Assembly: GCA_003225455.1 (NCBI GenBank) | Contig: QIAB01000033.1 | Coordinates: 1 to 53,727, forward strand | DNA length: 53,727 nt | From: Acidobacteriota bacterium | GTDB lineage: Bacteria > Acidobacteriota > Terriglobia > Terriglobales > Acidobacteriaceae | Reading direction: 5' to 3' | Part shown: piece by piece, positions 30,137-34,808 of the stretch | Layout of the letters: each line of letters starts with the position of its first letter | Position numbering within the stretch: position 1 is the stretch's first letter | Program-made: the position numbers and the translations under genes | The notes under the pieces: model-generated | Told to the model about the DNA's origin: nothing | The model's database searches: none | The model's input: the letters and a program-made list of their open reading frames with translations, nothing else

Positions 30137-30232
30137 AGGAACACCTCGATGGGTTTTGGATGGGATATTCGAAAGAAATGTTGTGCGCTTCTGGGAGAAC
30201 ATACTTTCCAACGAGAACGATGCTGGAGTGAG

Positions 30233-30538
30233 CTAGGCAGCTTTGCGTGAGGATCTTCCCTTACGCCGAGTTTCGGAAAGCGCACGTTTCAGATCGGCAG
30301 TGAGGTCGGCGCTTTCCGTTGCAATATGGACGGGAGAACGCGAACGCGACTCTTTCCCTATCCAACGGTTCAACTCATCAGGCAGGGCATATACATACCG
30401 CCCACCGCGATGGACCGGCATTCCTGACCGCTCCCATCGCTGTGCTGTCGCGACCGGCAATCCTAGAAACTCGGCAATTTCCTGCCAGCCCTGAAGTTCG
30501 CGAATTTGATTTTTTTCCTTCTTGGCCATGCAAACCAT
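30233..30538 (-). CDS. Excisionase/MerR-type helix-turn-helix protein
   Basis: A 101-residue DNA-binding protein. The segment ELQGWQEIAEFLGLPVATAQ followed by RWERSGMPVHRGGRYVYALP is a typical helix-turn-helix plus wing of the DUF3853/excisionase-like type. The tail is polar and basic (TRRKGRSSRKAA). Two Met starts (30538 and 30529) are possible and neither has a clear ribosome site. The 3' end of the gene plus about 50 bases downstream is duplicated at 31510-31612. It may regulate its neighbours or be left from a mobile element. Confidence 0.75.
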   Translation of the reverse strand: MVCMAKKEKNQIRELQGWQEIAEFLGLPVATAQRWERSGMPVHRGGRYVYALPDELNRWIGKESRSRSPVHIATESADLTADLKRALSETRRKGRSSRKAA

Positions 30539-31395: not shown

Positions 31396-31509
31396 GGAAG
31401 GTCAATTCCTAGAATTCACGGTTGTGCAGCTTGAGGCGTTTTGCGGGCGTGAGTGGAGCGGGAGCCCTCAGCCGAAACCGCGAGCGCAGCGAGGGACCTC
31501 CCAGCAAAG

Positions 31510-31612
31510 TGTTGTGCGCTTCGTGGGAAAACATACCTGCCAATAAGAACGATGCCGGAGTGAGCTAGGCAGCTTTGCGTGAGGACCTTCCCTTACCCCG
31601 AGTTTCCGAAAG
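31510..31612 (-). pseudogene. Duplicate of the HTH gene 3' end
   Basis: About 103 bases match 30179-30280 in the same orientation, covering the last codons and stop of the HTH gene and the downstream flank. The rest of the gene is missing. It lies in the 31396-31634 interval with no other feature. Confidence 0.7.
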
Positions 31613-31634
31613 AACAACCGATGCGGGCGCGAGA

Positions 31635-31988
31635 CTACGCTCTCCCGCCCATCGTGAACGGCTGCCCGCAGCTATTGCAGAATCTCGAACCCCACGGTGA
31701 GTATTTCCCGCATGCGCGGCACAGTTCGGAGGGCGGATTGACCTGCGGGGCCGATTGCTGAACCACGACTTGAGTCGGTTTTGGCTCGGATTTTAGTGCC
31801 CACGCGAGCGCTATGACCCACCCGACCAGCGTCCATCCGAGAAAGAAATTGATGGCCAGAACCGATCCAAAGTCGCCTTTGTTCCAGGCGAGGATGCTAG
31901 GTAAAAAATAGAGTCCTAGGATCAGAAGAGCGAGGAACAAAATGCTCCCGGCATCACCACCCGCTGAATCGAATAGAAAAACCGCCAT
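31635..31988 (-). CDS. Superinfection-immunity-family membrane protein with zinc ribbon
   Basis: A 117-residue protein. Two membrane spans (SILFLALLILGLYFLPSILA and LAINFFLGWTLVGWVIALAW) match the superinfection immunity (Imm-like, PF14373-type) family, named after T4 Imm, which blocks phage DNA entry. Relatives are common in bacteria without any phage link. The C-terminal tail adds a zinc ribbon, CRACG...CNSCG, on the cytosolic side. ATG 31988 has AGAGGT 7 bases upstream; a longer frame to 32045 is unlikely. Any defence role is inference only. Confidence 0.82.
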   Translation of the reverse strand: MAVFLFDSAGGDAGSILFLALLILGLYFLPSILAWNKGDFGSVLAINFFLGWTLVGWVIALAWALKSEPKPTQVVVQQSAPQVNPPSELCRACGKYSPWGSRFCNSCGQPFTMGGRA

Positions 31989-32136
31989 GATAGTAACCTC
32001 TGGCGGGGGAAGGCGCACTATCCCATATTTGCGGCTGACGTGCAACCGGATTGTGGCCAGGAAATCAAGGAAAAAGACCCCAGTTCCGGTGCACGGGCCA
32101 GAAATGCTTGGAAGCGAAGTAGGTTGCCAAAGATTC

Positions 32137-32181
32137 TGGTAGGCCCGGCAGGACTCGAACCTGCAACCCTCGGATTAGAAA
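32137..32181. repeat. Displaced tRNA-Arg 3' end (putative att repeat)
   Basis: 45 bases identical, except for one C/T difference, to 33508-33552, i.e. the CCA end, T-arm and 3' anticodon arm of tRNA-Arg(TCT). Both copies have the same orientation. The adjacent bases cannot fold into the missing 5' half, so it is a fragment. This is the pattern left by integrases that use tRNA 3' ends. Confidence 0.82.
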
Positions 32182-32361
32182 GCTGGCTGTGCAAGCTACC
32201 TAAACCAGTGATCCTGCTGGCGGGCTCTCGGCGAAAATAGGCACCGGACGGGCTGTTTCGAGCGTGGCTGTTGCGAAAGTTGCTGCAAAGACGTAACCAC
32301 CTTTCATCTAGCCGCCCCACAGCCTTGGTGTTTGTGATCGCAGAAGCTATCCTGAGCAGTA

Positions 32362-32955
32362 ATGAATCAAGAGCCGAAATCGTCTCGCAGCGGGTCTACG
32401 CTCGCGTCCATTTTGGGTGTGCTTGGATTCGTGCTGAGTGTCGTAAGTTTAGGGTGCCAAGTGCATGTACACGAGGAAAGCTTGACAGACAAGGCTTTGG
32501 TCAGGTTCTCGATTTCCTTCCCTGACTACAAGATGATCCGCTCCGTAACTAAAACAGGTAAAAATCGAGTCGACCTGGACTTAGACGCATCATTCCTAAA
32601 GAAAAACGGGCTCTTTGCGGAGGTTATCAACATCGGGCAGCATCCACTCTACGTCAAGCAAGTGCGACTCATTGTCCCGTGTCCAGAGACCCGGGATAGC
32701 GATTCGATCACCTTTCAGCCAGCAAAAGGTTCGCCCCGCGCTCTTGAGCCGGGAGCAGCAACCATCTACAAGGCAGGTCCTTGGAATTTGTCAGACCATC
32801 CCCTGCTTGACCCAGCGGAGCGATTCTGTGTAACCGTCGAGTCGAACAAGGGGCTTGTCACTCAGACCGATGAAATCTCAGACATGACATTCTCGATAGG
32901 CAACCGGCTCAAATCGACATCGACAAAGCCAAAGACTCAAAAGCCCATCCGCTGA
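32362..32955 (+). CDS. Unknown membrane-anchored protein, cargo of the tRNA-Arg element
   Basis: A 197-residue protein with an N-terminal cytosolic lead (MNQEPKSSRSGS), one membrane span or signal anchor (STLASILGVLGFVLSVVSLG) ending near a Cys (GCQVHVHEES), then a soluble beta-rich domain (VRFSISFPDYKMI, VDLDLDASFLKKNGLFAEVI, YVKQVRLIVPCPETRDSDSI, ERFCVTVES). The SLGCQ sequence could be read as a loose lipobox but lies later than usual. I do not recognise the family. It lies between the two tRNA-Arg repeats with an integrase relic and is the only sizeable cargo gene there. Confidence 0.7.
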   Translation: MNQEPKSSRSGSTLASILGVLGFVLSVVSLGCQVHVHEESLTDKALVRFSISFPDYKMIRSVTKTGKNRVDLDLDASFLKKNGLFAEVINIGQHPLYVKQVRLIVPCPETRDSDSITFQPAKGSPRALEPGAATIYKAGPWNLSDHPLLDPAERFCVTVESNKGLVTQTDEISDMTFSIGNRLKSTSTKPKTQKPIR

Positions 32956-33040
32956 ATCATTCTGGCTTACCCTGAATTGCTCCAGGTTGCCCCGGTTCAT
33001 GGTATCCAGCTCGTAAGAAGAAGGATGCTAAGCTATCAAA

Positions 33041-33289
33041 ATGATCCACATCATAGTCTTAGCTATTTTATTTTCGATTATGTACCACTTTCTTGCGCCG
33101 CGCGGCGAGCGAACCCCGCACTGCGCGCCCGCTCGCCTGGAATTTCCACTTCCGCCAACTCCGCCACTTGATTGGCTGGGCGGTTACGATGATTCTGCGA
33201 ATCTCGCGGCTTTGATTGCCATTCATCAGAATGCACGACAGGCTGCCTTGGCCAGCTATTCAGACGAAGGCTTTCTCTTCGTATCGTAG
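33041..33289 (+). CDS. Small membrane-anchored hypothetical protein
   Basis: An 82-residue protein with an N-terminal span (MIHIIVLAILFSIMYHFLAP) and a polar tail (ANLAALIAIHQNARQAALAS). It lies inside the putative tRNA-Arg element. There is no convincing ribosome site (AAGGATG is about 14 bases away) and no recognisable family, so it could be a chance frame. The 32956-33040 gap before it holds nothing. Confidence 0.4.
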   Translation: MIHIIVLAILFSIMYHFLAPRGERTPHCAPARLEFPLPPTPPLDWLGGYDDSANLAALIAIHQNARQAALASYSDEGFLFVS

Positions 33290-33340
33290 TTCAGCGGGGC
33301 GGGTAGGCCTTGATACTTCTTCTCCGCGCAGCTGCGCCGA

Positions 33341-33505
33341 GAAGGAACGCACCCGAAGCTCGTGTCGACTCTGCTCGGTCACTCGAACGTGCACTTGGCG
33401 ATGGACGTGTACGACCACGTCGAGATCGGAGAGCTGGTGACGCCGATCGAGAGAGTGTCCGCTCAGTTGTTGCGAGATGTTGCGAAGCCCGAGGCAAGCG
33501 CTTGA
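33341..33505 (+). pseudogene. Tyrosine recombinase (integrase) C-terminal relic
   Basis: The last ~54 codons of a phage-type integrase: EGTHPKLVSTLLGHSNVHLA followed by MDVYDHV and a short tail to a TGA two bases before tRNA-Arg. LLGHSN carries the catalytic His-region, and the Tyr in MDVYDHV is the catalytic tyrosine. The upstream catalytic domain and a start are absent: a stop at 33311 closes the frame. Its place beside the tRNA 3' end is typical for integrases of tRNA-targeting elements. Confidence 0.75.
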
Positions 33506-33507
33506 TT

Positions 33508-33584
33508 TGGTAGGCCCGGCAGGACTTGAACCTGCAACCCTCGGATTAGAAATCCGATGCTCTATCCGCTTGAGCTACGGGCCC
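33508..33584 (-). tRNA. tRNA-Arg (anticodon TCT)
   Basis: A complete 77-base cloverleaf on the minus strand. The acceptor stem GGGCCCG pairs with CGGGCCT (one G-T pair), discriminator A, and CCA is encoded. D-arm AGCTC...GAGC. Anticodon stem TCGGA/TCCGA with loop TTTCTAA gives anticodon TCT (33550-33548), which reads AGA. T-arm GGTTCAAGTCC. It is the intact attachment-site copy of the putative integrative element to its left. Confidence 0.95.
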
Positions 33585-33674: not shown

Positions 33675-34808
33675 GTGTCTTACTCTTCAGTGCGCTCTTC
33701 ATCGCGCTTGGCCTACATCGATTGGATGCGTGGGCTGGCCTGCGTCCTGATGTTTCAGACGCATTGTTACGACTCCTGGCTTAGCGCCGAGGCACGCAAG
33801 AGTACCTTCTTCATGTGGTCGCAATTAGGCGGCACGCTGCCTGCGCCGTTGTTCCTCTTTCTTGCGGGAATTTCATTTGCGCTCGTGGTCGACAAGCTGC
33901 GGCAAAAGGATCTAATGGCTTCTCAGATCGCGCGCACCACCATCCGCCGCGGCGCTGAAATTTTTGGTTTGGGGTTACTGTTTCGCGTGCAGGAATATCT
34001 CATCGCCTGGGGATGGGCGCCGTGGAGCGATCTGTTCCGCGTGGATATTCTCAACACCATCGGCATTTCCATGATGCTGATGGGAGTGAACTGCGGGATA
34101 GTTTTCTGGATCGCAAGATCGCACCAGGCTGTTGCGCTGGCCGGAGCGGCAGCAGCAATCGCTTTAGCGATCGCACTAATGACGCCTCCGCTGTGGACAA
34201 CCTGGCGTCCGCACTGGCTCCCTTGGCCGCTCGAATCCTACATCAACGGCGTGCACAATCTCGGAGAACCCCAGCCGTGGCTCTTCCCGATCTTTCCCTG
34301 GGCTGGTTTCGCTTTTGCCGGCCTAGCCATAGGCTTGTTCCTGTCGAGCGGCTGGGGACGCAGTCACAGCAGCCGGACATTCGCGCTGGTCGCGGGCGGC
34401 GGAGTCGCGCTCATCTATCTGGCGCGATGGTTTGATGCGCGGCCCTGGCAGCTTTATCCGGTGTACGACTATTGGCACACCAGCCCTAATTTTTTCCTCG
34501 TCCGCGTCGGTTTGCTGCTCATAATTCTCTCGGCCGTCTACGCCTGGTGCCGCTGGGGCGCTGGACAATGGGGCTTCAGCCCGCTGATACAGCTGGGCCA
34601 AACATCGCTGCTGGTGTACTGGGTGCACATTGAATTTGTCTACGGCCGTTTCTCTATATTGCCCAAACGCGCACAGGATATTCGCACTGCATCATTCGGC
34701 CTGCTCGCGATTTTCCTTTCGATGCTTTTCCTCTCGCTAATGCGCACCAAACTGAAGGGAAGAGGAACGGCTGTGCTGGCATGGTTTCGCAAACCAGTCA
34801 GCGCGTGA
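33675..34808 (+). CDS. DUF1624/heparan-alpha-glucosaminide N-acetyltransferase-like membrane protein
   Basis: A 377-residue inner-membrane protein with about 10 spans. The N-terminal block YIDWMRGLACVLMFQTHCYD holds the conserved Arg and His (THCYDSW) of this acyltransferase-like family, followed by PAPLFLFLAGISFALVVD and, late, LIQLGQTSLLVYWVHIEFVY. Human HGSNAT uses acetyl-CoA to acetylate glycans across a membrane; the bacterial substrate is unknown. GTG 33675 places the conserved IDWMRG at residue 15. It converges with the next gene, and the two overlap by 11 bases at their 3' ends. Confidence 0.85.
   Translation: MSYSSVRSSSRLAYIDWMRGLACVLMFQTHCYDSWLSAEARKSTFFMWSQLGGTLPAPLFLFLAGISFALVVDKLRQKDLMASQIARTTIRRGAEIFGLGLLFRVQEYLIAWGWAPWSDLFRVDILNTIGISMMLMGVNCGIVFWIARSHQAVALAGAAAAIALAIALMTPPLWTTWRPHWLPWPLESYINGVHNLGEPQPWLFPIFPWAGFAFAGLAIGLFLSSGWGRSHSSRTFALVAGGGVALIYLARWFDARPWQLYPVYDYWHTSPNFFLVRVGLLLIILSAVYAWCRWGAGQWGFSPLIQLGQTSLLVYWVHIEFVYGRFSILPKRAQDIRTASFGLLAIFLSMLFLSLMRTKLKGRGTAVLAWFRKPVSA

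Follow-up and report, generated by a model that had tools for sequence, protein, structure and literature searches.

Islands integrated at tRNA genes are marked, in Islander, by a regenerated tRNA and a displaced fragment of its 3' end; Islander also tests for an integrase gene, and the length profile of its islands peaks at 13.6 and 39.9 kb (PMC4383910). Cis-mobilizable elements (CIMEs), described in streptococci, are 1.2–13 kb long and carry cargo (PMC7563491); by definition they are derived from ICEs or IMEs (PMC7563491, PMC5704250). Island remnants of such a kind are among the known sources of orphan genes (PMC2718499).

The window – the whole stretch of 53,727 nucleotides of Acidobacteriota DNA that was analysed – contains a locus of ca. 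1.37 kb which is very probably the decayed remnant of an ordinary tRNA-Arg island, with most of the element and most of its integrase lost. The initial annotation had placed here an intact tRNA-Arg(TCT), a displaced 45-base copy of its 3' end, the C-terminal relic of an integrase two bases from the tRNA, and a 197-residue open reading frame, and each of these was recovered in the analysis that follows.

The tRNA-Arg gene and its displaced 3' half

The window contains one tRNA gene, a tRNA-Arg(TCT) on the minus strand, which ARAGORN places at 33508–33584 and Rfam at 33511–33584 (70.4 bits). A 45-nt copy of its 3' half, from the anticodon loop to the CCA end, lies on the same strand at 32137–32181. 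The two stretches, 32137–32181 and 33508–33552, form a direct repeat in the same orientation, identical at 44 of 45 positions; when the window was shuffled 100 times, a 22-base probe taken from the displaced copy never matched by chance. The repeat unit is 1371 bp, and the interior between the copies extends from 32182 to 33507. Deleting the unit in silico and joining the flanks at the displaced copy gave a complete tRNA-Arg(tct). A regenerated tRNA with a displaced 3' half is the hallmark of site-specific insertion into tRNA genes (PMC4383910), here of the class with crossover in the anticodon loop. The displaced copy would then be the distal attachment site and 33508–33552, the 3' half of the tRNA-Arg gene, the proximal one.

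Presumably the element brought the half at 33508–33552, and 32137–32181 is the original chromosomal 3' end. This assignment is weakly suggested by position 57 in the T loop, which is G in the displaced copy, like 15 of 20 relatives, and A in the intact tRNA, like the other five. The bases adjoining the displaced copy have no similarity to the 5' half of the tRNA (the alignment score was equalled in 66% of shuffles), which argues that the copy is a half-gene and not a decayed whole tRNA. No third copy of the tRNA-Arg 3' end was found in the window or genome-wide, where a close probe found just the two known copies; a larger tandem array was rejected on this ground.

The intergenic DNA to the left of the element contains an 89-nt repeat, 90% identical between 30192–30280 and 31524–31612, and a longer stretch (31405–31640) has only four matching places in the whole genome. 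Just outside the distal attachment site, the minus strand at 31635–32045 encodes a short membrane protein; it carries a superinfection immunity domain (PF14373) and may have a zinc ribbon.

The integrase tail and the reading frames of the interior

On the plus strand at 33320–33505 is a reading frame for the C-terminal 61 residues of a tyrosine integrase, recognized by comparison with full-length integrases and retaining the GH and Tyr motifs. It stops two bases short of the CCA end of the tRNA and reads FSAQLRREGTHPKLVSTLLGHSNVHLAMDVYDHV... The closest match is the C-terminus of a 456-aa integrase of genome G070, which has a Pfam phage integrase domain (54% identity over 61 residues, E 3e-17); other full-length integrases match at 46% (G077), 45% (G032) and 38% (G148) identity. 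In all four genomes, which belong to related genera, the C-terminus of the integrase faces the 3' end of a tRNA gene – tRNA-Lys(CTT) in G070 and G077, tRNA-Thr in G032, and tRNA-Met in G148 – so these nearest full-length relatives target tRNAs other than tRNA-Arg.

The alignment begins just past the HxxR box. The late histidine and the tyrosine are kept, the first arginine, the lysine and HxxR are absent, and the frame therefore lacks the full catalytic set R..K..HxxR..H..Y. About 395 integrase residues are gone, and the enzyme is dead. No further significant pieces of this integrase were found within the element, and no close homologue of the tail was found elsewhere in the same genome. A 26-bp near-perfect palindrome at 33319–33344 lies exactly at the start of the tail and possibly marks a deletion junction.

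The main open reading frame of the interior (32362–32955, plus strand) encodes 197 aa with a single hydrophobic segment near the N-terminus (residues 14–32); the rest of the chain has no known domains. Of 1000 dinucleotide shuffles of the element, 8 gave an ATG reading frame of this length or more; the frame is thus probably, not certainly, a gene, and it is the probable cargo of the element. The protein had no match in Pfam, PHROGs, NCBIfam or PADLOC, and only chance-level matches in the PDB. No convincing relative was found in plasmids, phages or close relatives, nor in GTDB and viral contigs, where the scans depend on exact short peptides and would overlook remote homologues. In 399 genomes of the class there was one marginal match (33% over 60 residues, E 0.002). 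A structure prediction made without an alignment had a mean pLDDT of 33.5, too poor for use. The most that is inferable is a membrane-anchored accessory protein of the lost element. A second open reading frame of 82 aa (33041–33289, plus strand), of uncertain coding status, had no significant family match. Besides the integrase tail, there were no family matches inside the element, and no conjugation gene is left in it.

Occupancy of tRNA genes in related genomes and in the same genome

The 3' side of tRNA-Arg(TCT) was compared in 20 related genomes. The source genus is represented in the sample by a single genome, so there is no empty site from a close relative. Synteny with the relatives is kept only on the 5' side of the tRNA, not on the 3' side; an acyltransferase-like gene, at 33675 in the window, is near the same tRNA in several of them. 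A full integrase at the same tRNA-Arg, for which the initial annotation had proposed a search, does exist: in G068 a complete 462-aa integrase with a confirmed domain, from a more distant branch, ends 34 bp from tRNA-Arg(TCT). No distal attachment copy was found in the stretch of G068 examined. Traces of integrases are found in two more genomes. In G036 a decayed frame 6 bp from the tRNA holds an integrase tail, recognized with a profile built from these integrases and with no Pfam match alone, and G014 has a short frame 28 bp away that, judged by eye, is like an integrase C-terminus. In G045 and G067, displaced 3' copies match the tRNA up to the anticodon loop or slightly beyond it, like the copy in the window, and in G003 and G076 there are 24-nt exact copies of the 3' end of tRNA-Arg(TCT), ending 111–123 bp downstream. 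These integrases, tails and displaced copies show that elements have repeatedly integrated at tRNA-Arg(TCT) in this family.

The 111–123 bp stretch that the 24-nt copy closes in G003 (L072:559-681) and G076 (L088:542-652) includes a dispersed repeat that matches at dozens of places in G003; the stretch is similar to microCIMEs, the smallest remnants flanked by att sites, or to a repeat with tRNA ends as its target. In G081 (L048:105-1460), a full 452-aa integrase-like frame ends 41 bp upstream of the 5' end of tRNA-Arg(TCT), opposite the usual side.

The source genome itself has 15 Pfam integrase stretches, that is, several other integrases. It also has two more displaced tRNA 3' copies, which indicates that such remnants are not unusual in it. 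One is a 45-nt displaced 3' copy 5.8 kb from a tRNA-Asn(GTT) (G000:C79:39382-45255; L102:3383-9256). This pair encloses subunits I and II of a cytochrome bd oxidase and a methyltransferase-like gene, and no integrase was found between the tRNA and its copy. The other, of 38 nt, matches the 3' end of a tRNA-Lys(TTT); the tRNA is on contig G000:C174 and the displaced copy is at G000:C179:4738-4775 (L103). On the latter contig there is, in addition, an integrase frame truncated by the contig end, which is directed towards the 3' end of a tRNA-Met.

Origin of the locus and its place among known elements

In the proposed history, the simplest one, an element with a tyrosine integrase of ca. 456 aa would have entered the tRNA-Arg(TCT) gene by recombination between its attP and the region of the anticodon loop. 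The 3' half carried by the element would have rebuilt the tRNA, and the one originally there would have ended up at the distal end, at 32137–32181. An internal deletion would later have taken out the bulk of the element and the whole integrase gene except for its last ca. 61 codons; what survived would be the two attachment ends, the integrase tail and an orphan cargo gene. Such a remnant could no longer excise itself; at most, it might be mobilised if another element, with a matching integrase, inserted next to it. Nothing indicates present mobility, and the original size and type of the element (phage, ICE or other) are not readable from what remains.

The initial annotation had offered a choice between a remnant after massive deletion and a very small non-autonomous element mobilised in trans. 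The former is well supported – by the attachment pair, the regenerated tRNA, an integrase tail without its core active site, and the islands at the same tRNA in relatives – while the latter gained no support. That a minimal element is still mobile through an integrase supplied in trans is very unlikely: its attachment ends are near-identical and the other integrases of the genome could in principle recombine them, but the 1.37-kb locus is single-copy in the genome, the tail has no close homologue there, the relatives have neither a convincing relative of the 197-aa gene nor a similarly close attachment pair, and the integrase tail indicates an autonomous ancestor. About as unlikely is the narrower version, in which a single-gene element of 1.37 kb, its protein family unknown from anywhere else, continues to excise and integrate by means of the integrases of other tRNA islands in the same genome.

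A composite origin, with the integrase tail and the distal attachment copy coming from two tandem insertions whose middle was deleted, ranks below both. Tandem accretion at one target gene is known in other bacteria and several kinds of element use tRNA-Arg(TCT) in the family, but just two copies of the tRNA 3' end are present here, for which one insertion suffices. Partial tRNA copies can arise by duplication, and the initial annotation would have counted its reading as refuted if the 32137 copy belonged to another decayed tRNA gene and relatives had no islands at this site. Neither holds. No tool result supports a decayed duplicate here, and its probability is close to nil: the match to the tRNA breaks off abruptly at the anticodon loop, the partner copy has an integrase tail beside it, and the copies in relatives are broken at about the same place. 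A decayed second tRNA gene was accordingly rejected, the flanking bases being unlike a 5' half.

As a decayed tRNA-Arg island, the locus shares with the islands of Islander the regenerated tRNA, the displaced 3' fragment in the same orientation at the ends, the anticodon-loop crossover, a tyrosine integrase, and an element on the 3' side of the tRNA. It differs in its unit of 1.37 kb and in having only the integrase tail; with just the C-terminal 61 residues remaining, it is classed as a decayed remnant and not as an intact island. The remnant also resembles a CIME: attL and attR are both retained at the sequence level, the integrase is truncated and no transfer genes are found, a cargo gene is left, and the size is in range. 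No conjugation gene is left, however, to demonstrate an ICE or IME origin, or a conjugative ancestor at all, and the window contains no tandem partner for it. A tRNA-island remnant is a common kind of genomic fossil, and this one is ordinary though cleanly documented – a clean case of a tRNA island reduced by decay to one cargo gene, with an intact attachment site on either side.
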